Source of the DNA: Streptacidiphilus jiangxiensis
Lineage (GTDB): Bacteria; Actinomycetota; Actinomycetes; Streptomycetales; Streptomycetaceae
Assembly (NCBI RefSeq): GCF_900109465.1
Contig: NZ_FOAZ01000014.1
Location: 62,001 to 126,000, forward strand
Length of the DNA stretch: 64,000 bases
Direction: 5' to 3'
Every line of letters starts with the position of its first letter. Position 1 is the first letter of the stretch. Shown piece after piece: positions 3,020 to 21,871 of the stretch. The translations under genes and the position numbers were made by a program. Below the pieces are notes generated by a model, which saw nothing but the letters and a program-made list of their open reading frames with translations, searched no databases and was not told the origin of the DNA.

Positions 3020-3113
3020 GACGAACCTGCTTTCTGGAAGCCTTGGACAGGCGAGGGGAGGCGTGCGGAGGCATGCGCGAGGGGCATGCGGAGACATGGG
3101 GGGAGCCGCCGCC

Positions 3114-3148
3114 CCGGCCCGCCCCGGTCAGGGCGGGTCGCGGGCCGG
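3114..3148 (-). terminator. GC hairpin between malG and aglA
   Basis: CCGGCCCG (3114-3121) pairs with CGGGCCGG (3141-3148), with a further CCCGCC/GGCGGG stem inside. It lies in the 163-bp gap between the malG stop and the glucosidase start. It may attenuate read-through and lower aglA expression, or protect the malEFG transcript. No U-tract, as usual in this group. Confidence 0.6.
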
Positions 3149-3182
3149 GACGACGGGGACCACGCGCGGACGAGCCCGGGCC

Positions 3183-4073
3183 TCAGCCCTTGAGGCCGCC
3201 CGCGGTCAGCCCGGCCATGATGTTGCGCTGGAAGACGAGGAACAGCGCGATGGTCGGGATCGACGCCAGGAAGAGCCCGGCGATCAGTGAGTTCTCCGGC
3301 ATGGAGGTGGCCGCGGTGTTGACCCCGACGTTGAGCGTCTCGTGCGAGGGCACGGTGATCAGCGGCCAGAGGAAGTCCTTCCAGACCGCGACCACCCCGA
3401 AGATGGAGACGACGCCGAGGATCGGCCGCGACAGCGGCAGCACCACGGACCAGAGCACCCGGACCGGGCCGGCGCCGTCGATGGCCGCGGCGTCGAGGAG
3501 CTCGTTGGGGATGGAGTCGAAGAACCGCTTCAGCAGGAAGATGTTGAAGGCGTTGGCCACCGTGGGCAGCCAGATCACCCACGGGGTGTCCTGCAGGTTC
3601 ACGTGGATCAGCGGCAGGTCGAGGACGGTCAGGTACTGCGGGATGACGAGCGCGGCAGCCGGGATCATCATCGACGCCAGCATCATGCCGAGGATCACGT
3701 TGCCGAGGACCGGCCTCAGCTTGGAGAGCGAGTAGGCGGCGGCGACGCCGAAGAGCAGTTGCAGGAGGAGCGCTCCGCCGGCGTAGACGACGGTGTTCAG
3801 CAGCAGCTGACCCATGCCCAGGCGCGACCAGGCCTCGGTGAAGGCGTGGGTGGCGGGGTGCTCCGGGAAGAGCGTCGGCGGGGTGCGCACCAGCTCCTGG
3901 GAGCTCTTGAAGCCGCCGGTCGCCATCCAGTACAGCGGGCCGACGAAGACCACCGTGGTGACGATCAGGATCAGCGTCAGCACGATCCGGTAGATCAGTC
4001 GGCCGCGCGGCTGGTTCAGCCGGACCGGCGAGATCAGGGTCCTGGTCGCGGAGTTCGGGACGGTCGTCGCCAT
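3183..4073 (-). CDS. malG: Maltose-type ABC transporter permease, MalG family
   Basis: Inner-membrane permease of a carbohydrate ABC importer (CUT1), 296 residues, family length. Six hydrophobic segments are visible, the first at about 27-48 (VLTLILIVTTVVFVGPLYWM). The ATPase-contact EAA loop reads ELLDAAAIDGAGPVRVLWSVVLP, with the conserved G. The C-terminus NIMAGLTAGGLKG is the standard end of the MalG family. The gene starts 1 bp after the malF stop, so the two are translationally coupled. No ATPase gene is nearby; in streptomycetes MsiK is the usual shared ATPase for CUT1 importers and is encoded elsewhere, which would explain the absence. Confidence 0.93.
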   Translation of the reverse strand: MATTVPNSATRTLISPVRLNQPRGRLIYRIVLTLILIVTTVVFVGPLYWMATGGFKSSQELVRTPPTLFPEHPATHAFTEAWSRLGMGQLLLNTVVYAGGALLLQLLFGVAAAYSLSKLRPVLGNVILGMMLASMMIPAAALVIPQYLTVLDLPLIHVNLQDTPWVIWLPTVANAFNIFLLKRFFDSIPNELLDAAAIDGAGPVRVLWSVVLPLSRPILGVVSIFGVVAVWKDFLWPLITVPSHETLNVGVNTAATSMPENSLIAGLFLASIPTIALFLVFQRNIMAGLTAGGLKG

Positions 4074-4074
4074 G

Positions 4075-5019
4075 TCACGCCTCCCGTCCGCGGCGTTCCA
4101 GCCACAGGTAGATCGCGGAGAAGCAGCCGAGCACCAGCAGCATGATCACGCCGAGGGCGGCCGCGGTGTTGAACTTGTCGTAGTTGAACGCGTAGTTGTA
4201 GAGCAGGTAGACCACGGTGGTGGTCGACCCCTCGGGCCCGCCGCCGGTCAGCACGAAGGACTCGGTGAACATCTGCATGGTGGCGACCACCTGCAGCATC
4301 AGCATCAGCGACAGGATCAGCCGGGTCTGCGGCACGGTGACGTGCCAGATGCGCTGCAGCAGGTTCGCGCCGTCGAGTTCGGCTGCCTCGTACAGCTCAC
4401 CCGGGATGCCCTGGAGTGCCGCGAGGTAGACCAGGGTGGCGCTGCCCATGTTGCCCCAGGTCGAGACGAACACCAGCGAGGGCATCGCGCTGCTCTTGGA
4501 GGCCAGCCAGGAGGAGGTGGGCAGGTGCACGGCGTGCAGGACCTGGTTGAACAGGCCGTAGCCGGGGTCCATGAAGTACTTGAAGAGCAGGATGCCCGCC
4601 ACCGGCGGCAGCATCACCGGCAGGTAGACCAGGACCCGCAGGTAGCCCTGTGCGTGCCGGCACTCGTTGATCACGATCGCGGCGGCGAACGGGGCGGCGA
4701 AGCCGAAGAACAGAGCGATGCCGGTGAACTCCAGCGTGTTGCGCCAGGCGGACCAGAACTCCGGATCGGCGGTGATCTGCCGGTAGTTGGCGAGGCCAAC
4801 CCAGCTGGTCTCGCCGTAGTGGACCCGCTGGAACGACATGACGATCTCGCGGATCATCGGGTACCAGGTGAACAGCACGAAGCAGAGCAGCGCGCCGATC
4901 AGGAAGGCGTGGGCGCGCAGGTTGCGCACCAGCGCGCGGCGCAGGGCCGCGAGCGGCGGGCGCGAGCCGTCGCGGGCCGCGTCGACGCGGGCCTGACCTC
5001 GCGTCAGCGTGACAGCCAT
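4075..5019 (-). CDS. malF: Maltose-type ABC transporter permease, MalF family
   Basis: Partner permease of the CUT1 importer, 314 residues. The cytoplasmic N-terminus (about 35 residues) precedes six transmembrane segments starting near AFLIGALLCFVLFTWYP. The EAA loop is GELYEAAELDGANLLQRIWHVTVP. It lacks the large periplasmic insert of enteric MalF, as is usual for Gram-positive homologues. It lies between malE (94-bp gap holding a stem-loop) and malG (1-bp gap). Specificity is set mainly by MalE, so the transported sugar could be maltodextrin or an alpha-1,3-linked oligosaccharide. Confidence 0.93.
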   Translation of the reverse strand: MAVTLTRGQARVDAARDGSRPPLAALRRALVRNLRAHAFLIGALLCFVLFTWYPMIREIVMSFQRVHYGETSWVGLANYRQITADPEFWSAWRNTLEFTGIALFFGFAAPFAAAIVINECRHAQGYLRVLVYLPVMLPPVAGILLFKYFMDPGYGLFNQVLHAVHLPTSSWLASKSSAMPSLVFVSTWGNMGSATLVYLAALQGIPGELYEAAELDGANLLQRIWHVTVPQTRLILSLMLMLQVVATMQMFTESFVLTGGGPEGSTTTVVYLLYNYAFNYDKFNTAAALGVIMLLVLGCFSAIYLWLERRGREA

Positions 5020-7801: not shown

Positions 7802-8343
7802 ATGCCCGGGCGTCCGCCCTGCTGGTCGTCAGCGGCCCGCCCGGAGCGGGCAGGACGACGCTCGCGCACGCCCTGGCCACGGCCCTGACCCGGCCGCTGG
7901 CCTGCCGCGACGAGCTGAAGGAACGGCTGGTCGCGGCGGGCGCGAGCCCGGCCGACCAGCTCGACCCGCTCGCCAACGAGGCGTTCTTCCGCACCCTCGG
8001 TGAAGAGCCGGCGGCGGGCCACAGCCCGGTGGCGGAGGCGGCCTTCCAGGACCGGTTCTGGCGTCCCGGTCTCGCGCCGCTCGCCGACCTGGCCGCGATC
8101 CGGGCGGTCCGCTGCGTCGTCGACGCCGCCGTCGCCCGAACCCGCATCACCGACCGCGCCGCGTCCGATCCACGCCGCGCGGCCCGCGCGGACGCCGAGC
8201 TACCGGACCGGGTCGCGCGCGGGGAGCGTCCGATCCAGCCGGGGGCACCGATCGCGCTCGACGTCCCATCCCTCGTCGTGGATTCCACCCGGGGCTGGAT
8301 CCCGGGGCTACCGGAGATCGTCTCGTTCGCGCGTCTCGTCTGA
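7801..8343 (+). pseudogene. P-loop kinase-like frame lacking a start codon
   Basis: An open frame reading ASALLVVSGPPGAGRTTLAHA has a complete Walker A (GPPGAGRTT) and continues through ACRDELKERLV, VAEAAFQDRFWRPGL and IALDVPSLVVDST, the full pattern of the roughly 180-residue AAA/shikimate-kinase-like ATP-binding proteins of actinomycetes. No ATG, GTG or TTG lies in frame between the end of the regulator (stop 7799-7801) and the Walker A; the only nearby codons are GTA (7798) and tandem CTG (7819, 7822), and the ATG at 7802 is in the wrong frame. The body has no internal stop and looks intact. Either it starts at CTG, or a point change destroyed a GTG and the gene is recently dead. Confidence 0.5.
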
Positions 8344-8421
8344 CGCTTGCGCTTTCCTCCAACGCTCGCCTGTCCGTTCCATTGACTGCGTGCGCTCACG
8401 TCTGTAACTTCCTCGCGAAGT

Positions 8422-8456
8422 GTTGGAAATCCACGACAGCATCGCGGAATTCCAAC
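8422..8456. promoter_or_regulatory. Inverted repeat upstream of the large glucanase
   Basis: GTTGGAAATCC (8422-8432) and GGAATTCCAAC (8446-8456) form 11-bp arms with one mismatch and a 13-bp spacer, 73 bp before the glucanase start. A further CTCCAACGCT copy lies at about 8356. It is a candidate operator; it does not resemble the CTTGC sites near malR. Confidence 0.45.
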
Positions 8457-8528
8457 GCTACCCAGCGAGGGGGCCCGGGTCAGGGGCGCGGCTCGCCTCG
8501 GCGTCCGCCACACAGGAACCGAGGGACG

Positions 8529-11500
8529 ATGAACCACCCACGAACACGCGGGCAAGCGCTACTCGCCGTGCTCGCGACGCTCTTCGCACTGCTGCTCGGC
8601 ACCGCCACCACGCCCGCCCACGCCGCGGGCAGCAATCTCGCGGCGGGCAGGAGCGCCAGTGCCTCCAGTGCCAACGGCCAGTACGTCGCCACCAACCTCA
8701 ACGACGGTGACCAGTCCACCTACTGGGAGAGCACCAACGGCGCCTTCCCGCAGTGGGCGCAGATCGACCTGGGTCAGGCGACCTCCGTCAGCCAGGTCGT
8801 GTTGAAGCTCCCGACCGGCTGGGGCGCCCGCACCGAGACACTCAGCGTCCAGGGCAGCACCGACGGCACCACCTACGCCACGATCGTGGCGTCCGCCGGA
8901 TACACCTTCGACCCGTCCACCGCGAACACGGTCACCATCAACTTCGGTGCGACGACGACCCGTTACGTCCGGGTCAACATCACCGCCAACACCGGCTGGA
9001 GCGCCGCGCAGCTCTCCGAGTTCGAGATCTACGGCAGCTCCAACGCGCCGACGAACCTCGCGCTCGGCAAGACCATGAGCGACTCCGGTCACGCCCAGAA
9101 CTACGTCGCCGCCAACGCCAACGACGGTGACGCGACGACCTACTGGGAGTCGACCGACAACGCGTTCCCGCAGTGGCTCCAGGTCGATCTCGGCGCCTCC
9201 GTCGCCGTCGACCAGGTCGTCCTGAAGCTGCCGCCCTCCACCTCCTGGGCCGCCAGGACGCAGACCCTGGCGGTGCAGGGCAGCACCGACGGGAGCAGCT
9301 TCAGCGATCTCGCCGCCTCCGCCGGCTACACCTTCGACCCGGCCACCGGCAACACGGTGACCATCAACTTCAGCCAGGCCACCACCCGTTACGTCCGGCT
9401 GAACATCACCGCCAACACCGGCTGGCCGGCCGGGCAGATCTCCGAGTTCCAGGTCTACGGCCCCTCCGGCGCCGGGCAGCCGCCCGCCGCGCCGACCAAC
9501 CTGGCCTACACCCAGAGCTCGTCCGGCGCGGTCACGCTGACCTGGTCGGCATCCAGCAGCACCGGCGTCACCAACTACGACGTCTACGCCAACAACGCGC
9601 TGCTGACCTCCGTCCCCGGCACGGTGACGACCTACACCGACAACCCGTCGACCACCGCCACCGTCACCTACTTCGTCCGCGCTCGCGACGCGGCCGGTGA
9701 CCAGTCCGCCAACAGCAACAGCGTGACCCGCACCGGCGCCTCGGCCACCCCGCCGACCGCGCCGAGCAACCTCGCCTACACCCAACCCGCCTCCGGGAAT
9801 GTCGCGTTGACCTGGTCGGCCGCGTCCGACCAGGTGGGCGTGACGGGTTACAACATCTACCGCAACGGCAGCAAGCTCGCCTCCGTGAGCGGGACGACGC
9901 TGTCGTACACCGACTCCGTCGCCGACACCCTCACCGTCTCGTACGACGTGACGGCCACCAACGCCGCAGGCCTGGAGTCCGCCGCGTCCAACACCGTCAC
10001 CCGCACCGGGTCCGGCGGCACCTCGACCAACCTGGCCCTGCACAAGCCGATCGACGGCACCGCCTACACCTACACCTACGCGCCCGCCAACGCGGACGAC
10101 GGCGACGTCACCACCTACTTCGAAGGGTCCTCCTACCCCTCGCAGTTGACGGTGCACCTGGGTGCGAACGCGGACCTGTCCTCGGTGGTCGTGAAGCTCA
10201 ACCCGGCCTCGGCCTGGTCGGCCCGCACGCAGACCATCGCGGTGCTGGGACGCGAGCAGAGCGCCTCGACGTTCACCACGCTGGTGCCGGCCCAGTCGTA
10301 CTCCTTCGACCCGAGCGCCAACCAGAACACCGTCACCATCCCCGTCTCCGGCCGGGTCGCGGACGTGGAGCTGTCCATCACGTCCAACAGCGGCGCGCCC
10401 GGCGGCCAGGTCGCCGAGATGGAGGTCTACGGCACTCCGTCGCCCAACCCGGACCTGACGGTGACCTCCAGCTCGTGGTCGCCCTCCGCGCCGGTCGAGA
10501 CGGACTCGGTCACCACCTCCGCGGTGGTGAAGAACGGCGGCACGGCGGCCTCCGTCGCCACCGACGTCAACTTCTACCTCGGCACCACCAAGGTCGGCTC
10601 GACCACGGTCGGCGCGCTGGCGCCGGGTGCCACGCAGACGGTCTCGGCGACCATCGGTACGCAGAGCGCCGGGACGTACCAACTGACCACCAAGGTCGAC
10701 GAGTCGAAGAAGAACTTCAACCTCACCGCCGACCAGGCCTACACCAACCCGACCAACCTGGTGGTCACCCCGGTCCAGTCGGCCGACCTGGTCGGCACGC
10801 TCGCCTGGACGCCCAGCAACCCGGCCGCCGGCAACACCGTCACCTTCACGGCCACGGTGAAGAACCAGGGCACCATCGCCACCACCAGCGGAAGCCACGG
10901 CCTCACGCTCACCCTGCTGGACGGGACCGGCAACACCGTCACCACCCTCACCGGCTCGGTCAGCGGCACGATCGCGGCCGGCGCGACCAGCGCGCCGATC
11001 AGCCTCGGCTCGTGGACGGCGGTCAACGGCAAGTACACCGCGCACCTGGTGCTCGCCACCGACCCCAACGAACTGCCGATCAAGCAGCCGCACCTGACCA
11101 GCGACACCCCGCTCTTCGTGGGCCAGGGCGCCAACATGCCCTACGACGCCTACAAGTCCACCGACGGCGTCCTCGGCGGCTCCGCCGCGATCGTCGGCCC
11201 GAACCGCACCATCGGCGACATCGCCGGTGAGGCCACCGGACGCGAGGCGGTCACGCTGGACAACACCGGCGACTCGGTCAGCTGGACCTCGCGTGAGTCC
11301 ACGAACACCTTCGTGCTGCGCTACTCCATCCCCGACGCCCCGGGCGGCGGCGGCATCAACGCGACCCTGGACCTCTACGCCAACGGCCAGTTGGTCCAGC
11401 CGCTCAACCTCACCTCCCACTACGCCTGGCTCTACGGCTCGGAGACCAGCCCCGGCGACAGCCCGAGCGCCGGCTCGCCGCGCCACATCTACGACGAGTC

Positions 11501-12815
11501 CAGCTTCCTGCTCGCGCAGTCGTATCCGCAGGGGACGCTCTTCACGCTGAAGAAGGACGCCGCCAACACCTCCCAGTACGCGATCGACTTCATGAACCTG
11601 GAGCAGGCCGCCCAGACCGCCAACCCCGACCCGGCCCACTACGTCGTCCCCGGCGGCTTCACCCAGCAGGACGTCCAGAACGCGCTCGACAAGGTGCGCA
11701 TGGACACCACCGGCACGTGGACCGGCGTCTACCTCCCGGCCGGCCAGTACGCGGTCACCGGACGGCTCTCGGTCTACGGCAAGCCGGTCAAGGTGGTCGG
11801 CGCGGGCGTCTGGTACGCCCAGTTCGTCGCCCCGCAGAGCCAGACCGACACCGACACCGGCTGGGACCTCCAGGCCGGCGCCAGCGGCTCCACGTTCACC
11901 GGCTTCGCCTGGTTCGGCAACTACACCACCCGCCAGGACGGCCCCGGCCACACCTGGGACCTGCGGAACCAGTCGAACATCACGATCGACAACGTCTGGA
12001 TCGAGCACAACGTGGTCGGCGTCTGGGGCGCCTCCAACGTGCAGAACTCCACCTTCACCAACATGCGCATCCGTGACACCTACGCGGACGGCATCAACCT
12101 CACCAACGGCAGCCAGGGCAACCTGATCTCCAACGACGAGGCGCGCAGCACCGGCGACGACAGCTTCGCCCTCTTCGCGGCCCAGGACCAGAACCCGGGC
12201 AGCAAGCTGGAGAACAACACCATCCAGAACGTCACGGCGATGACCCCGTGGCGCGCGGCGGGCGTCGCGGTCTACGGCGGTGGCGGCAACACGATCCAGA
12301 ACTTCGTGGTCTCCGACACCCTGTGCTACTCGGGTCTGACCATCTCCTCGCTCAACTTCGGCTACGCCTTCGAGGGCTTCGAGTCGACGCCCCAGACGAC
12401 CATCTCGAACTTCTCGCTCACGCGGGACGGTGGCCACTTCTGGGGTGCCCAGGTCTTCCCGGCCATCTGGGCCTTCTCGGCGACCCAGCCCTTCCAGGGC
12501 ATCCGCGTCAACGACGCGACCATCACCGATCCCACCTACAGCGGCATCATGTTCCAGACCGACTACTCGGGAGGCTCCGCCCTCAACCCCGTCTCGGACA
12601 CCGTCTTCACCAACACCACCATCACCGGCGCCCACGCGGACAACGACGCCTACGGCACCGGCAAGTCCGGCTACGGCATCTGGGCCAACCCCCTGCCGGA
12701 GTCGGGGCAGGGCCCGGCCGTGGGGTCGGTGACCTTCAACCACCTGGTGGAGAGCAACAACGACGTCAACATCCAGAACACGACGTCGACGTTCACCATC
12801 ACCGTGAACCCGTAA
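8529..12815 (+). CDS. Modular secreted GH87 alpha-1,3-glucanase (mycodextranase/mutanase type)
   Basis: Large secreted polysaccharide hydrolase, 1428 residues, starting at ATG 8529 behind GAGGG. Order: signal peptide (1-34, ending PAHAAG); discoidin/F5-8C modules at about 35-172 and 173-314; FN3 domains at 320-402 and 408-495; a third discoidin module at 499-635; two CARDB-like beta-sandwiches at 640-746 and 752-864; catalytic beta-helix from about 866 to the end. In the helix ADGINL gives Asp1187 and TGDDSF gives Asp1210/Asp1211; the 23/24-residue spacing equals that of the catalytic aspartates I recall for the GH87 enzyme of Paenibacillus glycanilyticus. The family endo-cleaves alpha-1,3-glucan, and the discoidin and FN3 modules bind insoluble glucan. 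Single-gene unit between a possible operator and a terminator. Confidence 0.88.
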   Translation: MNHPRTRGQALLAVLATLFALLLGTATTPAHAAGSNLAAGRSASASSANGQYVATNLNDGDQSTYWESTNGAFPQWAQIDLGQATSVSQVVLKLPTGWGARTETLSVQGSTDGTTYATIVASAGYTFDPSTANTVTINFGATTTRYVRVNITANTGWSAAQLSEFEIYGSSNAPTNLALGKTMSDSGHAQNYVAANANDGDATTYWESTDNAFPQWLQVDLGASVAVDQVVLKLPPSTSWAARTQTLAVQGSTDGSSFSDLAASAGYTFDPATGNTVTINFSQATTRYVRLNITANTGWPAGQISEFQVYGPSGAGQPPAAPTNLAYTQSSSGAVTLTWSASSSTGVTNYDVYANNALLTSVPGTVTTYTDNPSTTATVTYFVRARDAAGDQSANSNSVTRTGASATPPTAPSNLAYTQPASGNVALTWSAASDQVGVTGYNIYRNGSKLASVSGTTLSYTDSVADTLTVSYDVTATNAAGLESAASNTVTRTGSGGTSTNLALHKPIDGTAYTYTYAPANADDGDVTTYFEGSSYPSQLTVHLGANADLSSVVVKLNPASAWSARTQTIAVLGREQSASTFTTLVPAQSYSFDPSANQNTVTIPVSGRVADVELSITSNSGAPGGQVAEMEVYGTPSPNPDLTVTSSSWSPSAPVETDSVTTSAVVKNGGTAASVATDVNFYLGTTKVGSTTVGALAPGATQTVSATIGTQSAGTYQLTTKVDESKKNFNLTADQAYTNPTNLVVTPVQSADLVGTLAWTPSNPAAGNTVTFTATVKNQGTIATTSGSHGLTLTLLDGTGNTVTTLTGSVSGTIAAGATSAPISLGSWTAVNGKYTAHLVLATDPNELPIKQPHLTSDTPLFVGQGANMPYDAYKSTDGVLGGSAAIVGPNRTIGDIAGEATGREAVTLDNTGDSVSWTSRESTNTFVLRYSIPDAPGGGGINATLDLYANGQLVQPLNLTSHYAWLYGSETSPGDSPSAGSPRHIYDESSFLLAQSYPQGTLFTLKKDAANTSQYAIDFMNLEQAAQTANPDPAHYVVPGGFTQQDVQNALDKVRMDTTGTWTGVYLPAGQYAVTGRLSVYGKPVKVVGAGVWYAQFVAPQSQTDTDTGWDLQAGASGSTFTGFAWFGNYTTRQDGPGHTWDLRNQSNITIDNVWIEHNVVGVWGASNVQNSTFTNMRIRDTYADGINLTNGSQGNLISNDEARSTGDDSFALFAAQDQNPGSKLENNTIQNVTAMTPWRAAGVAVYGGGGNTIQNFVVSDTLCYSGLTISSLNFGYAFEGFESTPQTTISNFSLTRDGGHFWGAQVFPAIWAFSATQPFQGIRVNDATITDPTYSGIMFQTDYSGGSALNPVSDTVFTNTTITGAHADNDAYGTGKSGYGIWANPLPESGQGPAVGSVTFNHLVESNNDVNIQNTTSTFTITVNP

Positions 12816-14267: not shown

Positions 14268-15461
14268 TCACCCCGCCCCCGTCGCATGGCGTTCGAAGAC
14301 GGCCGGGCGTGCGCTGCGCAGCGCGCAGGTGATGGCGCCGAGGAGGACCGCGTCGTCGCCGAGGGTGGATTCGGAGACTTCCGGGCGCAGCGGCGTCATG
14401 CGGTGCAGGGCGTCGCGGACCGGGTCCAGCAGGAGGTCGGCGCTGTGGCCGACGCCGCCGCCGAGGACGACGAGGTCGGGGTCGAGGACGGCGGAGACCG
14501 CGGCGACGACGAGGGCGAGGCGTTCGCCCTCGCGGGCGACGGCCTGGAGGGCGCGGGGGTCGCCGGCGCGGGCGGCGTCGAAGACGTGCTTGGCGCTGGG
14601 GGCGTCGGCGAGGCCCAGCTCGCGGGCGGTGCGGACGATGGCGTCGGCCGCCACCGCGTCCTCCAGCGCACCGCGGCGGCCCGCCGCCACCGTGGCCGGA
14701 TCGGGGGAGGTGAGCGAGAGCGGCAGGAAGCCGATCTCGCCCGCCGCACCGTGCGCGCCGGTGAAGAGCTGGCCGTCGGCGACGACGCCCATGCCGAGAC
14801 CGGTGCCGACCAGCACGTAGACGAAGAGGCGGCTGCCCTGCCCGGCGCCGACGGCATACTCGCCGAGCGCGGCGAGGTTGGCGTCGTTGTGGATGGACAG
14901 CTCCGGCCCGCCCAGCTGCGCGCGCAGCTGCTGGACGAGCCCGACCCGGCCCCAGCCGGGGAGGTTGACGGCGTAGCGGACGCGGCCCGACTCGGCGTCG
15001 AAGACGCCGGGCGTGCCGACGGCGGCGTGGACGACGCGGTCGGCGGAGACCCCCGCCTCCGCGAGCGCGCGTTCCGCCGCCGCGGCGACCGCGTCGGCGA
15101 CGGCGTCGGCCGTGGTGCCCTCGTTGGGCACGTCGACCCGGGCCTGGATGTCCCCGGCCAGGTCGGCGACGGCGACGCGCAGGCGGGCGCGGCCGATGTC
15201 GACGCCGAGGACGTAGCCGGCCGTCGGGTCCGGCTCGTAGAGGACCGCGCTGCGTCCGCGCTCGGGGACGATCGTGCCGACCTCGCGCACCAGGCCGCCC
15301 TGTTCCAGCGCGGCGAGCGCGCTGGAGACGGTCGGCTTGGACAGGCCGGTCTGTCGGGCGAGTTCGGCACGGGTGGCGGTGCCGACGCCGCGCAGGTGCT
15401 CGAGCAGCAGCAGCTCGTTGTTACTGCGCAGCCGCTGCCGGCTCCAGGGTTGCTCGTCCAC
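14268..15461 (-). CDS. ROK-family transcriptional repressor
   Basis: 397 residues: an N-terminal MarR-like winged helix (RSNNELLLLEHLRG, then ELARQTGLSKPTVSSAL at about 28-45) fused to a ROK sugar-kinase fold (GYVLGVDIGRARLRVAVADL, HNDANLAALGEYAVGAG, LVGTGLGMGVV, HGAAGEIGFLPL). The zinc motif is weak: the GEIGFLPL stretch is not followed by the CxCG knuckle. I chose GTG 15461, with AGGAG 5 nt upstream; the longer frame from 15581 would overlap the operator and adds low-complexity sequence. It is divergent from the APC permease. Such proteins bind palindromes and are released by a sugar or sugar phosphate, so it most likely controls the permease-kinase-SIS unit. Confidence 0.88.
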   Translation of the reverse strand: MDEQPWSRQRLRSNNELLLLEHLRGVGTATRAELARQTGLSKPTVSSALAALEQGGLVREVGTIVPERGRSAVLYEPDPTAGYVLGVDIGRARLRVAVADLAGDIQARVDVPNEGTTADAVADAVAAAAERALAEAGVSADRVVHAAVGTPGVFDAESGRVRYAVNLPGWGRVGLVQQLRAQLGGPELSIHNDANLAALGEYAVGAGQGSRLFVYVLVGTGLGMGVVADGQLFTGAHGAAGEIGFLPLSLTSPDPATVAAGRRGALEDAVAADAIVRTARELGLADAPSAKHVFDAARAGDPRALQAVAREGERLALVVAAVSAVLDPDLVVLGGGVGHSADLLLDPVRDALHRMTPLRPEVSESTLGDDAVLLGAITCALRSARPAVFERHATGAG

Positions 15462-15583
15462 GGGCTCCTGCAGTCTCTCGGGTGGTCCGGCCTCGGGCGG
15501 TCCAGCCTCGGGTCGTCGTCCGGCCCCCAACTCTAGACAACGGGTCGGGGCGGTCGTGATCGTCCTGAGCCTTGACGGCACAA

Positions 15584-15603
15584 GTAAAGGAATTTAACTT
15601 TAC
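15584..15603. promoter_or_regulatory. AT-rich palindromic operator between ROK gene and permease
   Basis: GTAAAG-GAATTTAA-CTTTAC is a perfect 6-bp-arm inverted repeat with an AT-rich centre. It lies in the 180-bp divergent gap, 38 bp before the permease ATG, and stands out in the GC-rich context. Its position fits direct repression by the ROK protein. Confidence 0.65.
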
Positions 15604-15641
15604 AGCCTGCCCGCCCTCACGCTCCCCCACGGAGGTACCCG

Positions 15642-17117
15642 ATGTCCGACCCGGCCGGATCGCCCGGACTGTCCAGAAAGGTCGGCCTGTTCCAGGCGAC
15701 CGCGATCAACATGAGCCAGATGTGCGGCATCGGGCCGTTCGTCACGATCCCGCTGATGGTGGCCGCGTTCGGCGGCCCGCAGGCCGTGATCGGCTGGATC
15801 GCCGGCGCGATCCTGGCCCTCGCGGACGGCCTGATCTGGGCCGAGCTCGGCGCCTCGCTGCCCGGCTCCGGAGGCACCTACGTCTATCTGCGCGAGGCCT
15901 TCCAGTACCGCAGCGGCAAGCTGATGCCGTTCCTGTTCGTCTGGACGGCCATGCTCTTCATCCCGCTGATCATGTCGACCGGCGTCCAGGGCCTGGTCCA
16001 GTACCTCGGCTACCTCTTCCCGAAGCTGACCACCGGCCAGGGCGACATCGTCGGCGTCGGTGTGGTCGCCCTCGTGATCCTGCTGCTCTGGCGCAAGATC
16101 GAGAACATCGGCAAGGTCACCGTGGTGATGTGGGCGGTGATGATCGTCTCCGTCGCCGCCGTCATCCTGGCCTCGTTCACGCACTTCCACCCGTCGCTGG
16201 CCTTCACCTGGCCCGCGCACGCGATCCAGCTGACCCACGGACAGTTCTGGATCGGCTTCGCCTCCGGCCTGACCATCGGCATCTACGACTACCTCGGCTA
16301 CAACACCACCGCCTACATGGGCGCCGAGATCAAGAGCCCGGGCCGGGTCATGCCGCGCTCCATCATCTGGTCCATCGTCGCGATCATGGCGATCTACCTG
16401 CTGCTCCAGATCGGCGTCCTGGGCGTGGTGCCGTGGCACGACATGCTCGACCCGAACAACGTCGCCTCCCAGTCCGTCGCCTCCGCCGTGCTGGAGAAGA
16501 CCTTCGGCAAGACCACCGCCGACGTGGTCACCTGGCTGATCCTCATCACCGCCTTCGCCTCCGTCTTCACCGGCCTGCTCGGCGGCTCCCGGGTGCCCTA
16601 CGACGCGGCCCGCGACAAGGTCTTCTTCAAGTCGTTCGGGCGACTGCACCCCAAGCACCAGTTCCCGGTGCTCGGCCTGCTCACCATGGGCGTCGTCACC
16701 GCAGCCGGCTTCCTCTTCGCCCGCCACATCGGCAACACCGCCACGCACCCGCCGCTGACCATCCTGATCACGCTGCTCACCACGGTGATGGTGATCATCC
16801 AGGCGCTCGCCCAGATCGCCGCCGTCACGGTGCTGCGCAAGCGGCAGCCGGGCCTGGCCCGCCCCTACAAGATGCTGCTCTACCCACTGCCGAGCGTCGT
16901 CGCCGGCATCGGCTGGCTCGTCATCTACGGCTACGCCGACAAGGCCAACCCAGGGGTGCATCCGATCGAGTGGTCGATCGGCTGGGTCGTCCTCGGCGTC
17001 GTCGCCTACCTGATCTGGTCCCGTGTGGAGAAGGTCTGGCCGTTCGGCCCCAAGGAGATCCGCGAGCAGTACCTGGAGGAGCAGCGGGCCACCGAGCTCG
17101 CCGACTCCGCCGCCTGA
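15642..17117 (+). CDS. APC-superfamily amino acid/amine permease
   Basis: Membrane transporter, 491 residues with about 12 hydrophobic segments. The N-terminal TM1 region (SRKVGLFQATAINMSQMCGIG) carries the unwound-helix G-x-G stretch of amino acid permeases. ATG 15642 is the first ATG in frame and follows CACGGAGGTACCCG, a good ribosome site. The next genes are a ROK kinase 82 bp on and a SIS-domain enzyme overlapping it by 4 bp. APC permeases are unusual for plain sugars. In E. coli the fructoselysine system uses an APC permease (FrlA) with a SIS deglycase (FrlB), so an amino-sugar or Amadori compound is a reasonable guess for the substrate. Confidence 0.88.
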   Translation: MSDPAGSPGLSRKVGLFQATAINMSQMCGIGPFVTIPLMVAAFGGPQAVIGWIAGAILALADGLIWAELGASLPGSGGTYVYLREAFQYRSGKLMPFLFVWTAMLFIPLIMSTGVQGLVQYLGYLFPKLTTGQGDIVGVGVVALVILLLWRKIENIGKVTVVMWAVMIVSVAAVILASFTHFHPSLAFTWPAHAIQLTHGQFWIGFASGLTIGIYDYLGYNTTAYMGAEIKSPGRVMPRSIIWSIVAIMAIYLLLQIGVLGVVPWHDMLDPNNVASQSVASAVLEKTFGKTTADVVTWLILITAFASVFTGLLGGSRVPYDAARDKVFFKSFGRLHPKHQFPVLGLLTMGVVTAAGFLFARHIGNTATHPPLTILITLLTTVMVIIQALAQIAAVTVLRKRQPGLARPYKMLLYPLPSVVAGIGWLVIYGYADKANPGVHPIEWSIGWVVLGVVAYLIWSRVEKVWPFGPKEIREQYLEEQRATELADSAA

Positions 17118-17199
17118 TCCGCCTGATCCGCCCGTCGCAGCGGGCCGGCTCGGCAGTCCTTCCCCTGCCCGGCCGGCCCGCACCACGAGGAACTTCCTG

Positions 17200-18300
17200 A
17201 TGCCCGTGATGCTCGAAGAACCCACGCCACTCCCCCATCCCGAAGAGGCCCCGGCCGACACCACGTACGACGCCACGTACGACACGACGGCCGACACGAC
17301 CGCCCCGAACCACCCGCCGATCGACGCCCACGGCCCCCGGGACGACACCCCGGCCCTGGTCATCGGCATCGACTTCGGCGGCACCAAGACCGAACTCGCC
17401 CTGGCCGACCACCGCGGCGCACTGCTCGCCCGCGAACGCCTCGACACCCTCGCCGAACGCGGACCCGAGCAGACCCTGGCCCGCACCGCCGAGGCGGTCC
17501 GGCGGTTGGCCCGCGAGGCACGCGAGCGGTTCGGCGCCCCCGTCGCCGCGCACGCGGCCGTCGCACCGGGGATCGTGCAGGCCGACCGGATCCTGCTCAC
17601 CCCCAACCTGCCCGGCTGGGAGGAGCTGGCCCTGTCGGCGCGCCTCGCCGAGGTGTTGGGCGTCCCGCAGGTGCCCGTCGCCAACGACGTGCGGGCCGGG
17701 GCACTGGCCGAGCTGCGCCACGGCGCACTCCGCGACGCCGATCCGGGGCTGTACGTGAGCCTGGGTACCGGCATCGCCGCCGCGCTCACCGTCGGCGGCA
17801 CCGTCCTGGCCGGGGCCCATCAGGCGGCCGGGGAGATCGGCTACGTCAACCCCGGCGGCGCGCCGTTCGACGCCGTCGCGGCCGGGCACGCTCCGCTGGA
17901 GGAACTGATCGGCGGCAAGGGCCTGGGCGAACGCGCCGAGGAGTTGCTGGGCCGGCCCGTCAGCGCGACCGAACTGCTGCGCAGCACCGACCCCGCGGCG
18001 CGGGACCTGGCCGACCACGCCGTCACCGTCCTCGGTGTCACCCTGGCCAACCTGTGCGCGTTCGCCGACCCGGCCCGGGTCGTCCTGGGCGGCGGCCTGA
18101 TGGCGGCCGCGGACGTGCTGCTGCCCGCGCTGGAGCGGGTGCTCGCCGCCGCCACACCCTTCCCGCCCGAGCTGCGCCCGGCACGGTTCCGCCGCGACGC
18201 GTCCCTGCACGGCGCGGTCACCCTCGCCCTCGACGGCCTGCGCCCGCGCGAGGAGCGCGCCCGTCCCCGCCCCACCGCGCCCCTGGGAGCCCACCGATGA
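17200..18300 (+). CDS. ROK-family sugar kinase
   Basis: 366 residues. After a Thr/Asp-rich N-terminal tail of about 50 residues comes the phosphate-binding motif IGIDFGGTKTELALAD (55-70), then ANDVRAGALAELRHGA with the catalytic Asp, and SLGTGIAAALTVGG and AGEIGYVNPGG. The CxCGxxGC zinc motif of typical ROK glucokinases is missing. There is no HTH, so it is an enzyme, not a regulator. Start ATG 17200 has GAGGAA 7 nt upstream. Its TGA overlaps the ATG of the SIS gene (ATGA). Likely reaction: ATP-dependent 6-phosphorylation of the imported sugar or sugar conjugate (glucosamine, N-acetylglucosamine or fructosamine). Confidence 0.85.
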   Translation: MPVMLEEPTPLPHPEEAPADTTYDATYDTTADTTAPNHPPIDAHGPRDDTPALVIGIDFGGTKTELALADHRGALLARERLDTLAERGPEQTLARTAEAVRRLAREARERFGAPVAAHAAVAPGIVQADRILLTPNLPGWEELALSARLAEVLGVPQVPVANDVRAGALAELRHGALRDADPGLYVSLGTGIAAALTVGGTVLAGAHQAAGEIGYVNPGGAPFDAVAAGHAPLEELIGGKGLGERAEELLGRPVSATELLRSTDPAARDLADHAVTVLGVTLANLCAFADPARVVLGGGLMAAADVLLPALERVLAAATPFPPELRPARFRRDASLHGAVTLALDGLRPREERARPRPTAPLGAHR

Positions 18301-19352
18301 CACTCACCCCGACCACGTCCCTGACGGTTCCCGGCGTTCGCATGGAAGCCGAGATGCGCGAGCAGCCCGCCGTGCTGGCCGCGCTCGCCGACCGCTGGCC
18401 GCAACTGACCACCCAGGTGGCCGACCTGGTCGGTGACGCGCCGCCACTCGGGGTCGCCTTCCTCGCGCGCGGGTCCTCCGACCACGCGGCGCTGCTCGGC
18501 CGCTACGCCGTCGAGCTGCAGACGGGCCTGCCGACGTGCCTGGTCGCGCCGAGCGTGGCCACCGCGTACGGCCGCGCGCCGGAGGGCTTCCGGGGCTGGC
18601 TGCTGGTGGCGCTCTCGCAGTCGGGGCGTACCCCGGAGATCGTCGACCTGACCCGCCGCTACGGCGCCGCCGGCGCCCGGGTGATCGCCGTGACCAACGA
18701 CGGCGGCTCCGCGCTCGCGGGCGCGGCCGACCTCTCCGTCCCCCTGGACGCAGGGCCGGAGCTCGCGGTCCCGGCGACGAAGACGGTCACGGCGCAGCTG
18801 CTCGCGCTGCTGGCCGTCTGCGCGGGGCTCGGGAGCGGCGGACTGACGCATACTCAGGCTGCTTCTCTGCCTGCGGCCGTGGCCCGGCTGCTGGACGATG
18901 CCGAGAGCCCGGACCGGGCAGCCCGCCCGCTCGCCGGGCACGACCGGCTGGCCGTCGTCGGTCGGGGCGCCTGCTATCCGGCGGCGCTGGAAGGCGCGTT
19001 GAAGCTCCAGGAGACCACCGGTCTGATGGCGCACGGTTTCTCGACGGCCGACTTCCGCCACGGTCCGATCGCCGTCTGCGGCCCCGACGCGCCGGCTCTG
19101 CTGCTGGCAGGTTCGGGCCCGGCGGACACCGACACCCTGGACCTGCGCACGGCCCTCGCCGCGCGCCGTGCCCCGACCCTGCTGGCCGGCACCGCCCCGG
19201 AGGCCGATCTGCCCTGGCCCGCCCTCGGCCACCTCGGCGAGTGCGTACTCGCCACCGTCCGCGCCCAGCAGCTCGCCCTCGCCACCGCGCGCCACCTCGA
19301 CCTCGATCCGGACCGCCCCGACGGTCTCAACAAGGTCACGATGACCCACTGA
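18297..19352 (+). CDS. SIS-domain sugar-phosphate deaminase/deglycase (NagB-II/FrlB-like)
   Basis: 351 residues with tandem SIS domains like the isomerase half of GlmS but no glutaminase domain. Matches include MEAEMREQPAVL at the start, FLARGSSDHAALLGRYAVEL, APSVATAYGR, ALSQSGRTPEIVDL, VPATKTVTAQ, VVGRGACYPAALEGALKLQE, FRHGPIAV and the C-terminal PDGLNKVTMTH. From memory this is close to the SIS-type glucosamine-6-phosphate deaminase NagB-II of Shewanella, including its RGSSDHAG and PAGLKKVTQT blocks. Expected product: fructose-6-phosphate plus ammonia, or glucose-6-phosphate plus amino acid if it is a deglycase. It is last in the operon, followed by a terminator. Confidence 0.85.
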   Translation: MTLTPTTSLTVPGVRMEAEMREQPAVLAALADRWPQLTTQVADLVGDAPPLGVAFLARGSSDHAALLGRYAVELQTGLPTCLVAPSVATAYGRAPEGFRGWLLVALSQSGRTPEIVDLTRRYGAAGARVIAVTNDGGSALAGAADLSVPLDAGPELAVPATKTVTAQLLALLAVCAGLGSGGLTHTQAASLPAAVARLLDDAESPDRAARPLAGHDRLAVVGRGACYPAALEGALKLQETTGLMAHGFSTADFRHGPIAVCGPDAPALLLAGSGPADTDTLDLRTALAARRAPTLLAGTAPEADLPWPALGHLGECVLATVRAQQLALATARHLDLDPDRPDGLNKVTMTH

Positions 19353-19388
19353 CCGCCCTGCCACCGGAACCGCTTGACGGATCGTCAC

Positions 19389-19421
19389 GTCCGAGCTGCG
19401 CACGCTCCGCGCAACTCGGAC
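19389..19421 (+). terminator. Stem-loop terminator of the APC-kinase-SIS operon
   Basis: GTCCGAG (19389-19395) pairs with CTCGGAC (19415-19421); after one mismatch TGCGC/GCGCA extends the stem. It lies 37 bp after the SIS stop. Confidence 0.75.
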
Positions 19422-19449
19422 AGCCGACCTATCGGGGAAGGTGGCAGCC

Positions 19450-20259
19450 ATGGAGCCCTCGGGGCGACCCGACTCACCTGCCGTCAGCACACGCGTGACC
19501 GGCGCGATCCTCATCGTGCTCTGCCTGGGTCTGGCCTGGATGGTCCACTCCTGGGTCACCAGGGAGATCACCGGCAGGAGCTGGGACCAGGACCCGGCCG
19601 GCCCGGTCTACCTCTCGCCCGACGGACGCACCCTGCTCGCCGTCGGTTCACCCATGGACCGGGGGCAGGCGCTGGGCGGGTGCGGTTCCAACATCACCGT
19701 CGACCTGGAGGCGCAGCAGACCGCGCACACGGTCGCGCTCCACTATCACCTGCGACAGGTGGGCGATCCGCATCCGGTCATGGGATCGTGCGCGCAGAGC
19801 CCCGGATACTTCCTCACGCTTGGACACCCCCTGAGCGCCCGCACCGTGACGGATCGCCAGGGGCACACCCTGGCGATCGTGGACGGCCGCCTCGCGCCCC
19901 AGCTCCGCGACCCGCAGCTCCTCGAGCCGACAGGGCCCGTGCCCTGCCCGACCCCCCGGACCGGACCGTACTGTCCGCACGGCTGGTTGATGTCCACCCA
20001 CACCTACGCCGGGCGCGGCGCCACCTGGACCTTCACCCAGATCATGGGCGGCGGCCCGCCCGGGCCCACCGGCGGCGAACCGTCGACCCGCGTGGGCGGT
20101 GCCCCCGCCGTCTGCAACCTGGCAGCCAGGACGGAGCCGACGCTGTCGTGGAGCCACGGCGACTTCCAACTGATCCTCTCCCGCCGTTCGCTGGACCCGC
20201 CCGCCTCGGATCAGGCGGTCTGCACAGTCCTCGTCCAGGAAGCCGGGTTCGTCCGGTGA
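19450..20259 (+). CDS. Membrane-anchored protein, tandem paralogue 1
   Basis: 269 residues: one N-terminal transmembrane anchor (GAILIVLCLGLAWMVHSWV, about 19-37), rest predicted outside. Conserved blocks shared with the next gene: DPAGPVYLSPDGRTLL, ARTVTDRQGHTLAIVDGRLAPQLRDP and a final VLVQEAGFVR. Six or more cysteines in the exported part suggest disulphides. I chose ATG 19450 behind GGGAAGG; GTG 19441 is possible. It is first of three coupled genes (GTGA overlap). I do not recognise a characterised family. Confidence 0.75.
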   Translation: MEPSGRPDSPAVSTRVTGAILIVLCLGLAWMVHSWVTREITGRSWDQDPAGPVYLSPDGRTLLAVGSPMDRGQALGGCGSNITVDLEAQQTAHTVALHYHLRQVGDPHPVMGSCAQSPGYFLTLGHPLSARTVTDRQGHTLAIVDGRLAPQLRDPQLLEPTGPVPCPTPRTGPYCPHGWLMSTHTYAGRGATWTFTQIMGGGPPGPTGGEPSTRVGGAPAVCNLAARTEPTLSWSHGDFQLILSRRSLDPPASDQAVCTVLVQEAGFVR

Positions 20260-21047
20260 CGCCGTCGCGTGCCCGCAGGATCTCGGCCGTCCTCGCCGTG
20301 GCACTGCTGTGCGTACTGGCGGGGTACGGCGTCTACGCCGTCTCCCGCCCGGCCGCCCCGAAGGAGTGGTACGCCGACCCGACCGGGCCGGTCTTCATCT
20401 CCGCCGACGGCGTCCACCTGCTGGTCACCGAGGGCGAGCCCGGAGCAGCGGGGCAGTGCTCCGGGGGCGGTGAGCCGGTGGCGCAACAGCGTGACCGCAC
20501 GGTCGTACTGCGCTGGCACTTCGAGGTGTTCCCCGACAACCCTGGGATGCCGGGTGTCTGCGCGGTGAGTTACGGCTACCCGCTCGCACTCGAACAGCCG
20601 CTCGGCGCCCGCACGCTGACGGACGGCCACGGCCACCCGCTCGCGGTCTTCGACGGACGGCGTGCTCCGCAGCTGCGCGATCCCCTGCTGACGGAGCTGG
20701 AACAGCCCCGGCCGTGCCGACCGGAGCCGGAACAGTCGCCGCAGGGCGCCTGCACCGGCCCGCTGAGCCTGTTCCTGCGCTACGAAGGGCGCGGGGCGCA
20801 GTGGAGCTTCTACCAGGACCAGACACCAGGGCCCGGCCCCGTTCCGAGCCCGTCGCTCCGGCCGGCGTCGGGCGTGATCGTCACGGTGCACGGGAACCCG
20901 GCCCTGTGCACCATGAACACCTCCGCCGGCGAGATGCTCCAGTGGCGGCAGGCCGGGTTCACGCTCACCCTCGAGGCCGGCCTGCCGGAACTGTCGGGAG
21001 GGCTCTGCACCTCCCTCGTCCGAGAGGCGGAGGGTTTCGTCCGATGA
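20256..21047 (+). CDS. Membrane-anchored protein, tandem paralogue 2
   Basis: 263 residues, start GTG 20256 overlapping the previous stop by 4 bp. N-terminal anchor ISAVLAVALLCVLAGYGVYAV. Same layout as paralogue 1: DPTGPVFISADGVHLLV, ARTLTDGHGHPLAVFDGRRAPQLRDP and a C-terminal SLVREAEGFVR. Cysteines are conserved in the same order (QCSGG, GVCAV, RPCRPEP, GACTG, ALCTM, GLCTS). Function unknown. Confidence 0.78.
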   Translation: MTPSRARRISAVLAVALLCVLAGYGVYAVSRPAAPKEWYADPTGPVFISADGVHLLVTEGEPGAAGQCSGGGEPVAQQRDRTVVLRWHFEVFPDNPGMPGVCAVSYGYPLALEQPLGARTLTDGHGHPLAVFDGRRAPQLRDPLLTELEQPRPCRPEPEQSPQGACTGPLSLFLRYEGRGAQWSFYQDQTPGPGPVPSPSLRPASGVIVTVHGNPALCTMNTSAGEMLQWRQAGFTLTLEAGLPELSGGLCTSLVREAEGFVR

Positions 21048-21871
21048 GGGCCCGGACAGTCCACGCCGCCGTGCTCGCGCTCGCCGCAAGCGCGCTCGCA
21101 GGCCTGCTGGCCGCGCAGGTCGCGGCGCCGTCGGACGGGACGGTGGCGCGCGCCGTCGGCTCGGCGTTGGTCTCCGCGGACGGGCGGCAGGTGAGCGTCA
21201 CCGAGACCGGGCCGTGCCTGGGTGCCGGGGAGTTGACGGCGCACGAGTCGGACACCTCGGTGACGCTGGAGCTCCGGGTCGTCCCGCATGCCGGCTCCGG
21301 CCCGTGCCTCGGCGGCGCGCAACTGCTGGTCCGGTCGGTGGCGTTGTCCGCGCCGCTGCGCGGGCGGCGGCTCGTCGACCGCGCCTCCGGCCTGGCTGTG
21401 CCGTTCTTCCGCGGCGCCGACCTGCTCCATGCCGGGCCCCTGCCGTCCGGCTTCCGCTTCGCCTACGTCGCGCCGGGTTACGCCCTGGGCGGATCAACCG
21501 AGCAGTGGGATCCGGCGGCGTCGACGCTCTACCTCGGCGGTCCGGTGGGAGCCGCGTCCGGCGCCGGCGTGGACGGCGCCGCCGCCGTCTGGCTGGTCGA
21601 GGAGTACGGCGGGCACTGGCCCGACGGGTGGCCGAACGACGCGCCGCTGGTCAGCGCCCACGGCAGGCTGGCGCGGGTGGGCCCGGACGGTCTCGCCTGG
21701 CGGGATCGGACGGCCGACGGAAGCGTCCTGAGCGTCGCCCTGCTCGCCGATCCGCCCCTCCCCACGGCCGTGCTCACCACGATGGCGGACGGTCTCCGGC
21801 CGGACGCCGACGGGCCGCCCGGCGGAAACCCGTCGCTCACAACTCCTCCACCGGCGACCGGCGTGGAGTAG
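21044..21871 (+). CDS. Secreted/membrane protein, tandem paralogue 3 (diverged)
   Basis: 275 residues, ATG 21044 overlapping the previous stop (ATGA). The N-terminus VHAAVLALAASALAGLLAA is a signal peptide or anchor. The opening block SALVSADGRQVSVTETGPCL and LRGRRLVDRASGLAVPFFRGADLL still align with paralogues 1 and 2, but the second half differs and loses most cysteines and the EAGFVR end. Probably arose by the same tandem duplication and then diverged. Function unknown. Confidence 0.72.
   Translation: MRARTVHAAVLALAASALAGLLAAQVAAPSDGTVARAVGSALVSADGRQVSVTETGPCLGAGELTAHESDTSVTLELRVVPHAGSGPCLGGAQLLVRSVALSAPLRGRRLVDRASGLAVPFFRGADLLHAGPLPSGFRFAYVAPGYALGGSTEQWDPAASTLYLGGPVGAASGAGVDGAAAVWLVEEYGGHWPDGWPNDAPLVSAHGRLARVGPDGLAWRDRTADGSVLSVALLADPPLPTAVLTTMADGLRPDADGPPGGNPSLTTPPPATGVE

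Follow-up and report, generated by a model that had tools for sequence, protein, structure and literature searches.

The soil actinomycete Streptacidiphilus jiangxiensis carries a short gene unit in which a permease of the amino acid type stands beside a ROK-family kinase and a double-SIS enzyme, behind a divergent ROK-family repressor. The unit occupies positions 14268-19421 of the stretch of 64,000 nucleotides analyzed here (the window: positions 62,001 to 126,000 of contig NZ_FOAZ01000014.1, NCBI RefSeq assembly GCF_900109465.1). Which compound would such a set import, phosphorylate and break down? An earlier sequence-only reading left the choice between glucosamine and a fructosyl-amino acid. 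We consider it probable that the unit is a catabolic operon under repressor control and that its substrate is free glucosamine, with which chitosan breakdown ends. Glucosamine would enter through the APC permease, the ROK kinase would convert it to glucosamine-6-phosphate, and the NagB-II-type SIS enzyme would deaminate this to fructose-6-phosphate and ammonia. The repressor would occupy a palindrome over the promoter and be released by glucosamine or its phosphate. We infer these substrates, reactions and the inducer from sequence comparison, and the strongest evidence pointing to glucosamine is that CsxA and NagB-I occur as alternative partners of one permease.

Gene content of the unit

14268..15461, minus strand: ROK-family repressor (winged helix-turn-helix and ROK domain), divergent from the operon; Pfam ROK 170.5 bits, MarR_2/HTH_24 N-terminus
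15572..15577, plus strand: -35-like element TTGACG of the operon promoter, in the layout TTGAC-N6-AGTAA(A/G)G
15583..15603, plus strand: operator AGTAAAGGAATTTAACTTTAC, arms GTAAAG (15584-15589) and CTTTAC (15598-15603), spacer N8
15642..17117, plus strand: APC-superfamily permease, predicted glucosamine importer; Pfam AA_permease_2 160.4 bits, orthologue neighbours
17200..18300, plus strand: ROK-family kinase, predicted glucosamine 6-kinase; Pfam ROK 129 bits, motif comparison
18297..19352, plus strand: double-SIS enzyme of the NagB-II lineage, predicted glucosamine-6-phosphate deaminase; Pfam SIS 94.9 bits in two stretches
19389..19421, plus strand: terminator-like hairpin, 13-bp arms, 92% complementary, 7-base loop

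All four genes named in the sequence-only reading lie where it had placed them, as judged by open reading frames and Pfam. The repressor frame is open from 14268 to 15581, and comparison with homologues makes the GTG at 15461 the likelier start, giving a protein of 397 amino acids. The kinase 3' end and the SIS start share an ATGA (18297-18300) in which stop and start codons overlap. The palindromic operator that had been proposed is present as GTAAAG-N8-CTTTAC and is above chance by genome scans with a reversed control, described below. The proposed terminator holds up in part: a 66-nt piece with the hairpin folds at -28.6 kcal/mol, where shuffled versions average -19.7 (z -3.1), but no T run follows in the sequence read, for which reason we call it terminator-like. 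The statement that no deacetylase is present agrees with our protein panel, which found no NagA-type gene near the unit.

Partners of the permease

A search with the permease alone, at E <= 1e-85 in 394 genomes of the class, recovered 11 orthologues (that of the window included), and we inspected the context of every one. Seven cluster with glucosamine genes: three with a kinase and an SIS gene, three with CsxA and one with NagB-I. The full units are those of the window, L098 and L209, the last with identities of 60, 42 and 38% for permease, kinase and SIS enzyme, respectively. Clusters of permease, repressor and csxA occur in L202, L204 and L206 (Streptomyces, genus inferred). The L202 CsxA matches the exo-beta-D-glucosaminidase 2vzs with 1262 bits over 883 residues and has the Pfam Ig_GlcNase domain, and the L204 and L206 proteins are 78 and 82% identical to it. 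The order in L210 is permease-repressor-NagB-I, with 249 bits to TIGR00502 (cut-off 236.9). CsxA frees glucosamine from oligomers of chitosan; the substrate of NagB-I is glucosamine-6-phosphate. Because two unrelated glucosamine enzymes replace each other as partners of one permease, glucosamine would be its favoured substrate.

The SIS enzyme

The SIS protein has 351 amino acids and matches Pfam SIS alone, in two stretches, with no glutaminase domain. Its best curated model is NagB-II (168.3 bits) and its best PDB matches are 3hba, 8eol, 3fj1 and 7kqa (E about 1e-39); these best models and structures are glucosamine-6-phosphate enzymes. Ten NagB-II residues are intact: R58, S61, D62, the SQS loop, K236, E239, H255 and K346 (RSDSQSKEHK). 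We take the compared positions to be equivalent to the catalytic residues of GlmS. Of 95 aligned rows, 86 keep all ten letters, 3hba and 3fj1 among them; the nine that deviate are both GlmS proteins, E. coli FrlB, the L053 SIS, L040, L045, L158, L102 and L142. The two GlmS proteins of the host genome read C, A and F/Y where the SIS protein has R58, S61 and D62, and FrlB is without most of the signature. Among the exceptions, L040, L045 and L158 are window-clade proteins that have lost most catalytic residues and could be sensors or pseudo-enzymes.

A tree of the 95 rows (midpoint root, long branches among the references, which did not include AgaS proper) contained a 91-row group, supported at 99/91, that unites the 89 rows taken from loci with the two NagB-II-like references, to the exclusion of GlmS, FrlB and the L053 SIS. 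The L053 SIS reference scores 80.4 and 77.9 bits on the GlmS and GlmD models against 25 bits for AgaS. Beside the kinase-SIS pair of that locus (Streptomyces sp. NRRL WC-3742), positions 2132-4966 code for a GlmD/GlmS-like SIS protein, a hexose kinase of the PfkB type and a class II aldolase, possibly a second amino-sugar set. The window SIS lies in a 20-row clade (100/99) within a 29-row clade (100/96), itself within a clade of 50 rows (98/94); the 21 rows that this last clade adds are labelled NAG. This label also covers rows with a GntR or phosphotransferase system (PTS) match alone; the stricter context counts are panel hits within 7 kb. The clade of the window nests amid NagB-II rows, many of them with NagA, GH3, GntR or PTS neighbours. 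By the stricter count, NagA, GH3, GH20 or PTS-IIC occurs beside none of the 20 rows of the window clade, one of the nine others in the 29-row clade (L060) and 44 of the remaining 60. The neighbours in the 20-row clade are a ROK kinase (16 rows), a repressor (13), the permease (11) and YhfX (3). Given this nesting and these counts, the function of the SIS enzyme looks inherited from glucosamine-6-phosphate deaminases, the partners having changed.

Seven loci (L049, L051, L052, L057, L058, L116 and L117) had been left out of the tree and the context counts as duplicates. The panel seeds for NagA, GH20, GH3, GH4, GntR, PTS-IIC and BadF were first named by eye, and curated models agreed, with exceptions: the L110 NagA is narrowly under its cut-off (222.5 versus 225.65 bits), and PTS-IIC scores almost equally on the glucose and N-acetylglucosamine (GlcNAc) models (448.7 and 440.4 bits), both times under the cut-off. 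The SIS protein of L060, 49-50% identical, lies beside NagA (269 bits, cut-off 225.65) and GH20, and a related SIS in L100 lies beside GH4 and a BadF-type kinase.

The AlphaFold model of the SIS protein (pLDDT, the predicted local distance difference test score, 92.9) fits the GFAT/GlmS isomerase and NagB-II structures with Z of 35-41, FrlB with Z of 30 and FraB with Z of 27.5. Since the first two are about tied, the fold does not separate NagB-II from the GlmS isomerase. A GlmS-like biosynthetic role, which the sequence-only reading had named as an outcome that would speak against it, was rejected because the protein has the SIS domain only and both host GlmS proteins lie outside the NagB-II branch. 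The host genome encodes a separate NagB-I (C41:241835-242527), so the SIS protein is an additional enzyme.

Kinase and repressor

The kinase retains the ATP loop (GIDFGGTK) and the catalytic Asp (NDV). The ExGH motif and zinc cysteines (CxCGxxGC) are typical of many ROK kinases; here the motif reads EIGY, with Tyr for His, and the cysteines are absent. Tyr occupies this position in 21 of the 22 kinases compared. The exception, L157, keeps the His and the cysteines, in a locus with NagA-like and GH20-like matches. The matching position is F or Y in each of the 12 repressors compared, which may mean that kinase and repressor recognize a common ligand.

Operator and promoter

The operator box was found in 10 of the 12 repressor-operon gaps read, the L037 copy having one base changed, and is absent from the gaps of L035 and L099, which are more distant. 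A scan of 14 genomes, allowing at most three mismatches, gave a single site in 12 of them, and the reversed pattern gave none in all 14. Eleven of these sites are ahead of this operon. The twelfth, with three mismatches, precedes a CsxA-like gene in G002 (C12:15719, the gene at 15790-18615), whose copy of the operon is truncated by a contig end. Within the window, among 127,960 positions on both strands, the operator is the sole 21-mer with at least 15 matches. The repressor apparently serves one target.

The window and 14 of the 16 further loci that were scanned have TTGAC followed by six bases and the box; the spacing is seven in L117, and L204 did not fit the search pattern TTGAC-N6-AGTAA(A/G)G. 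With the box six bases after TTGAC, the operator overlaps the promoter, a design for repression. The permease-repressor gaps of four Streptomyces loci, L202, L205, L206 and L207, have the same layout, as seen with a looser pattern drawn up after those gaps had been read. Matches to the window operator, of 21 positions, number 15 for the L206 gap box, 16 for the L206 csxA box and 13 for the L202 csxA box.

The host genome (9.5 Mb) has a CsxA-like protein of its own, with 550 bits to 2vzs, encoded on contig C41 with a GH20 gene behind the palindrome TTAAGTTAAATAACTTAA. GTTAAG-N8-CTTAAC or its core is found ahead of the CsxA-like gene in L237-L241 (the host and four congeners; in L237 at 7960-8080, with shorter arms) and not in the CsxA-like loci L242-L248. 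The CsxA-like gene is present in five of six congeners with the SIS gene and in two of the six tested without it, numbers too small to argue from.

Distribution of the unit

The unit is a real operon, conserved in Streptacidiphilus and scattered relatives. The order repressor-permease-kinase-SIS recurs in four other Streptacidiphilus genomes read and in Streptantibioticus rubrisoli, Streptomyces hygroscopicus, a metagenome-assembled genome labelled Nocardia, G014 and G686. S. tateyamensis and G012 retain permease, kinase and SIS genes, with no repressor detected alongside, and L053 and L117 have kinase and SIS genes without the permease. The L030 unit is interrupted by a contig end; L030, L115 and L158 are among the loci that are short or end with their contig, where a missing neighbour says little. 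The SIS gene was found in 6 of 13 other congener genomes, at 79-85% identity, and Streptacidiphilus accounts for 5 of the 15 named loci recovered with it. In the family sample it was found at E <= 1e-52 in 16 of 345 genomes (that of the window counted), five of them only 47-51% identical, a patchy distribution as for an accessory catabolic unit. Our search of the literature, limited to open-licence papers, found no description of the four-gene unit.

A large secreted protein with discoidin-like repeats and a pectate-lyase-like end, as identified by eye, lies upstream at 8382-12815 and has no link to the unit. Past the hairpin, at 19441-21871, is a run of look-alike exported or membrane proteins (also by eye), apparently unrelated.

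Alternative explanations

Several observations weigh against a glucosamine operon. Four of the 11 permease orthologues have no adjoining glucosamine gene: that of L205 adjoins a GH35 gene, that of L207 a repressor only, and those of L203 and L208 neither. We know of no APC-family glucosamine transporter, and our literature search turned up none. The SIS protein misses the NagB-II equivalog cut-off of NF046059 (168.3 versus 430 bits), and we have for that reason filed it under the NagB-II lineage and not as an equivalog. The host CsxA-like gene is on another contig than the unit, under a different palindrome. A strict operator scan, allowing at most 6 mismatches of 22, hit only two of the nine permease loci L202-L210, both times at csxA (L204 and L206); it found no operator in L209 and L210, the looser scan having covered other loci. 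Because the csxA boxes of L204 and L206 resemble the CsnR box of Streptomyces (AGGAAANTTTCCT), CsnR could regulate them. Finally, a YhfX-type gene accompanies the closely related trios of repressor, kinase and SIS enzyme in L035 and L099, and neither this nor the phosphotriesterase-like gene of some relatives is needed for plain glucosamine.

Would another substrate explain the unit better? FrlA is the top-scoring equivalog model for the window permease, though far under its cut-off (104.3 versus 800 bits), and FrlA is itself an APC permease. The permease might then import a conjugate of a sugar and an amino acid (such as glucose joined to it through C2), which the kinase would phosphorylate at O6 and the SIS enzyme hydrolyse to sugar phosphate and amino acid. 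YhfX-type pyridoxal phosphate (PLP) genes stand beside variously related kinase-SIS pairs (L035, L038, L039, L099, L113-L115 and L212), and in E. coli yhf adjoins frl. In addition, where the NAG-labelled rows commonly have Y67, Y164 and Y242, the window clade has L, V and G, which might hint at a wider pocket. We nevertheless regard such a Heyns or Amadori pathway as unlikely, since the kinship with FrlB or FraB is supported by neither model score nor signature nor fold rank, a PfkB kinase and an FrlC-type gene are absent from the unit, YhfX was not found in the host genome, and the same permease has CsxA and NagB-I as partners elsewhere. An Amadori substrate was rejected as first choice on the FrlB model (25.8 versus 430 bits), the FrlA model, the missing FrlB signature and the lower fold rank. 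Thus, of the two substrates in the sequence-only reading, glucosamine is favoured by the SIS lineage, active-site letters, neighbour swaps and promoter-operator layout, and the fructosyl-amino acid becomes unlikely.

The same chemistry could serve another free amino sugar, such as galactosamine, mannosamine, kanosamine or an aminoglycoside fragment. The sugar pocket of the kinase is altered in 21 of the 22 proteins (Tyr for the ExGH His, no zinc cysteines), and L053, where the kinase and SIS genes have a second SIS gene, a hexose kinase of the PfkB type and a class II aldolase nearby, holds a set that could act on another sugar. NagB-I and CsxA as alternative partners would indicate the gluco configuration, and we give these other sugars a low probability. 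We consider it very improbable that the unit degrades GlcNAc or N-acetylmannosamine (ManNAc) with a deacetylase encoded elsewhere in the genome. The kinase does score 76 bits on the ManNAc kinase model and 74 bits on that for GlcNAc kinase, under cut-offs of 450 and 380, but the neighbour counts given above (0 of 20 rows versus 44 of 60) speak against it, as does the uptake of GlcNAc by the PTS in Streptomyces, where it arrives phosphorylated (PMC12680351).

Relatives with YhfX-type genes

The gene order in L035 is repressor-kinase-APC2-SIS-YhfX and that in L099 repressor-kinase-SIS-ribose-type ABC (ATP-binding cassette)-YhfX-APC2-phosphotriesterase-like. YhfX also occurs in the less similar sets of L038, L039, L114, L115, L113 and L212. 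L035, L099, L113 and L212 combine a YhfX-type PLP gene with a ROK kinase, an SIS gene and an APC or ribose-type ABC importer, to which L099, L113 and L212 add the phosphotriesterase-like gene; to our knowledge, clusters of this type have not been described. L211 has repressor, kinase, ABC, YhfX and phosphotriesterase-like genes, with no SIS gene seen adjoining. In Aeromicrobium phragmitis (L059, 1-9000), a yhf-like set (YhfT, Php, YhfS, YhfX and YhfW by similarity; YhfZ, YhfY and YhfU by eye) is followed by an SIS gene whose product is 44-48% identical to that of the window.

Some of these relatives may act on a modified glucosamine. YhfX was found at E <= 1e-30 in 19 of 394 genomes and not in the host genome, either in that search, in which others matched, or in one at E 0.001 run without a positive control; because the host gave no match, modified glucosamine is kept out of our main explanation. 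A doubtful extension is that the repressor-kinase-SIS trio is central to a broader and so far undescribed pathway for glucosamine modified with amino acids (compounds of the Heyns type), of which the window keeps a minimal glucosamine form. With similarly slender odds, the trio of the relatives would work with YhfX (PLP, alanine-racemase fold), the phosphotriesterase-like hydrolase and importers of the APC or the ribose-type ABC kind, either of which could take the place of the other. If true, a substrate class could be assigned to the orphan yhf operon of E. coli.

Significance and relation to known systems

In this bacterial group, amino sugars control development and the making of antibiotics by way of DasR, and glucosamine-6-phosphate is among its effectors (PMC12680351). 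For the transport and metabolism of monomeric GlcNAc and glucosamine, "many questions remain" (PMC6097792). If our proposal is correct, the unit, with an importer, a kinase and a deaminase of its own and a repressor that has one target, would fill a gap on glucosamine uptake in antibiotic-making actinomycetes. It would offer a candidate for a glucosamine permease, from a transporter superfamily in which none was expected, together with an unusual ROK glucosamine kinase.

The frlABCD system for fructoselysine in E. coli likewise combines an APC permease, an SIS enzyme and a kinase. Its kinase is of the PfkB type, its SIS enzyme of the FrlB type and its regulator of the GntR type, and it includes the FrlC epimerase; none of these four is present in the window unit. 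NagB-II of Shewanella (PDB 8eol, 8eym and 8fdb), from nag clusters linked to NagA, resembles the window enzyme in its double SIS domain, its catalytic and substrate-loop letters and its region of the tree. The window SIS differs in scoring under the NCBIfam equivalog cut-off and in its partners, having no NagA neighbour but an APC permease and a ROK kinase without zinc cysteines.

The csnREFGHK system for chitosan oligosaccharides in Streptomyces shares a ROK repressor, a palindromic box over the promoter, chitosan-derived sugars and a kinase with our unit, but has an ABC transporter and a GH4 hydrolase. The CsnR box AGGAAANTTTCCT, the consensus in PMC6097792, is not the window operator AGTAAAGGAATTTAACTTTAC; a manual side-by-side comparison of the operator with the published CsnR site gives 9 of 21 positions in common. 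SjGlcNK, a glucosamine kinase of S. jiangxiensis itself, catalyzes the reaction predicted for the window kinase and is also encoded beside an SIS gene. As described in PMC6520443, it is maltokinase-like, with a eukaryotic-protein-kinase fold, and found mostly in biosynthetic clusters, whereas the window kinase belongs to the ROK family. The GlcNAc-6-phosphate dehydratase NagS is, like the window enzyme, an SIS-domain amino-sugar enzyme of the Streptomycetaceae. It is set apart from the window SIS by its description in PMC12680351, being related to MurQ, encoded beside dmdR1 and active on GlcNAc-6-phosphate.

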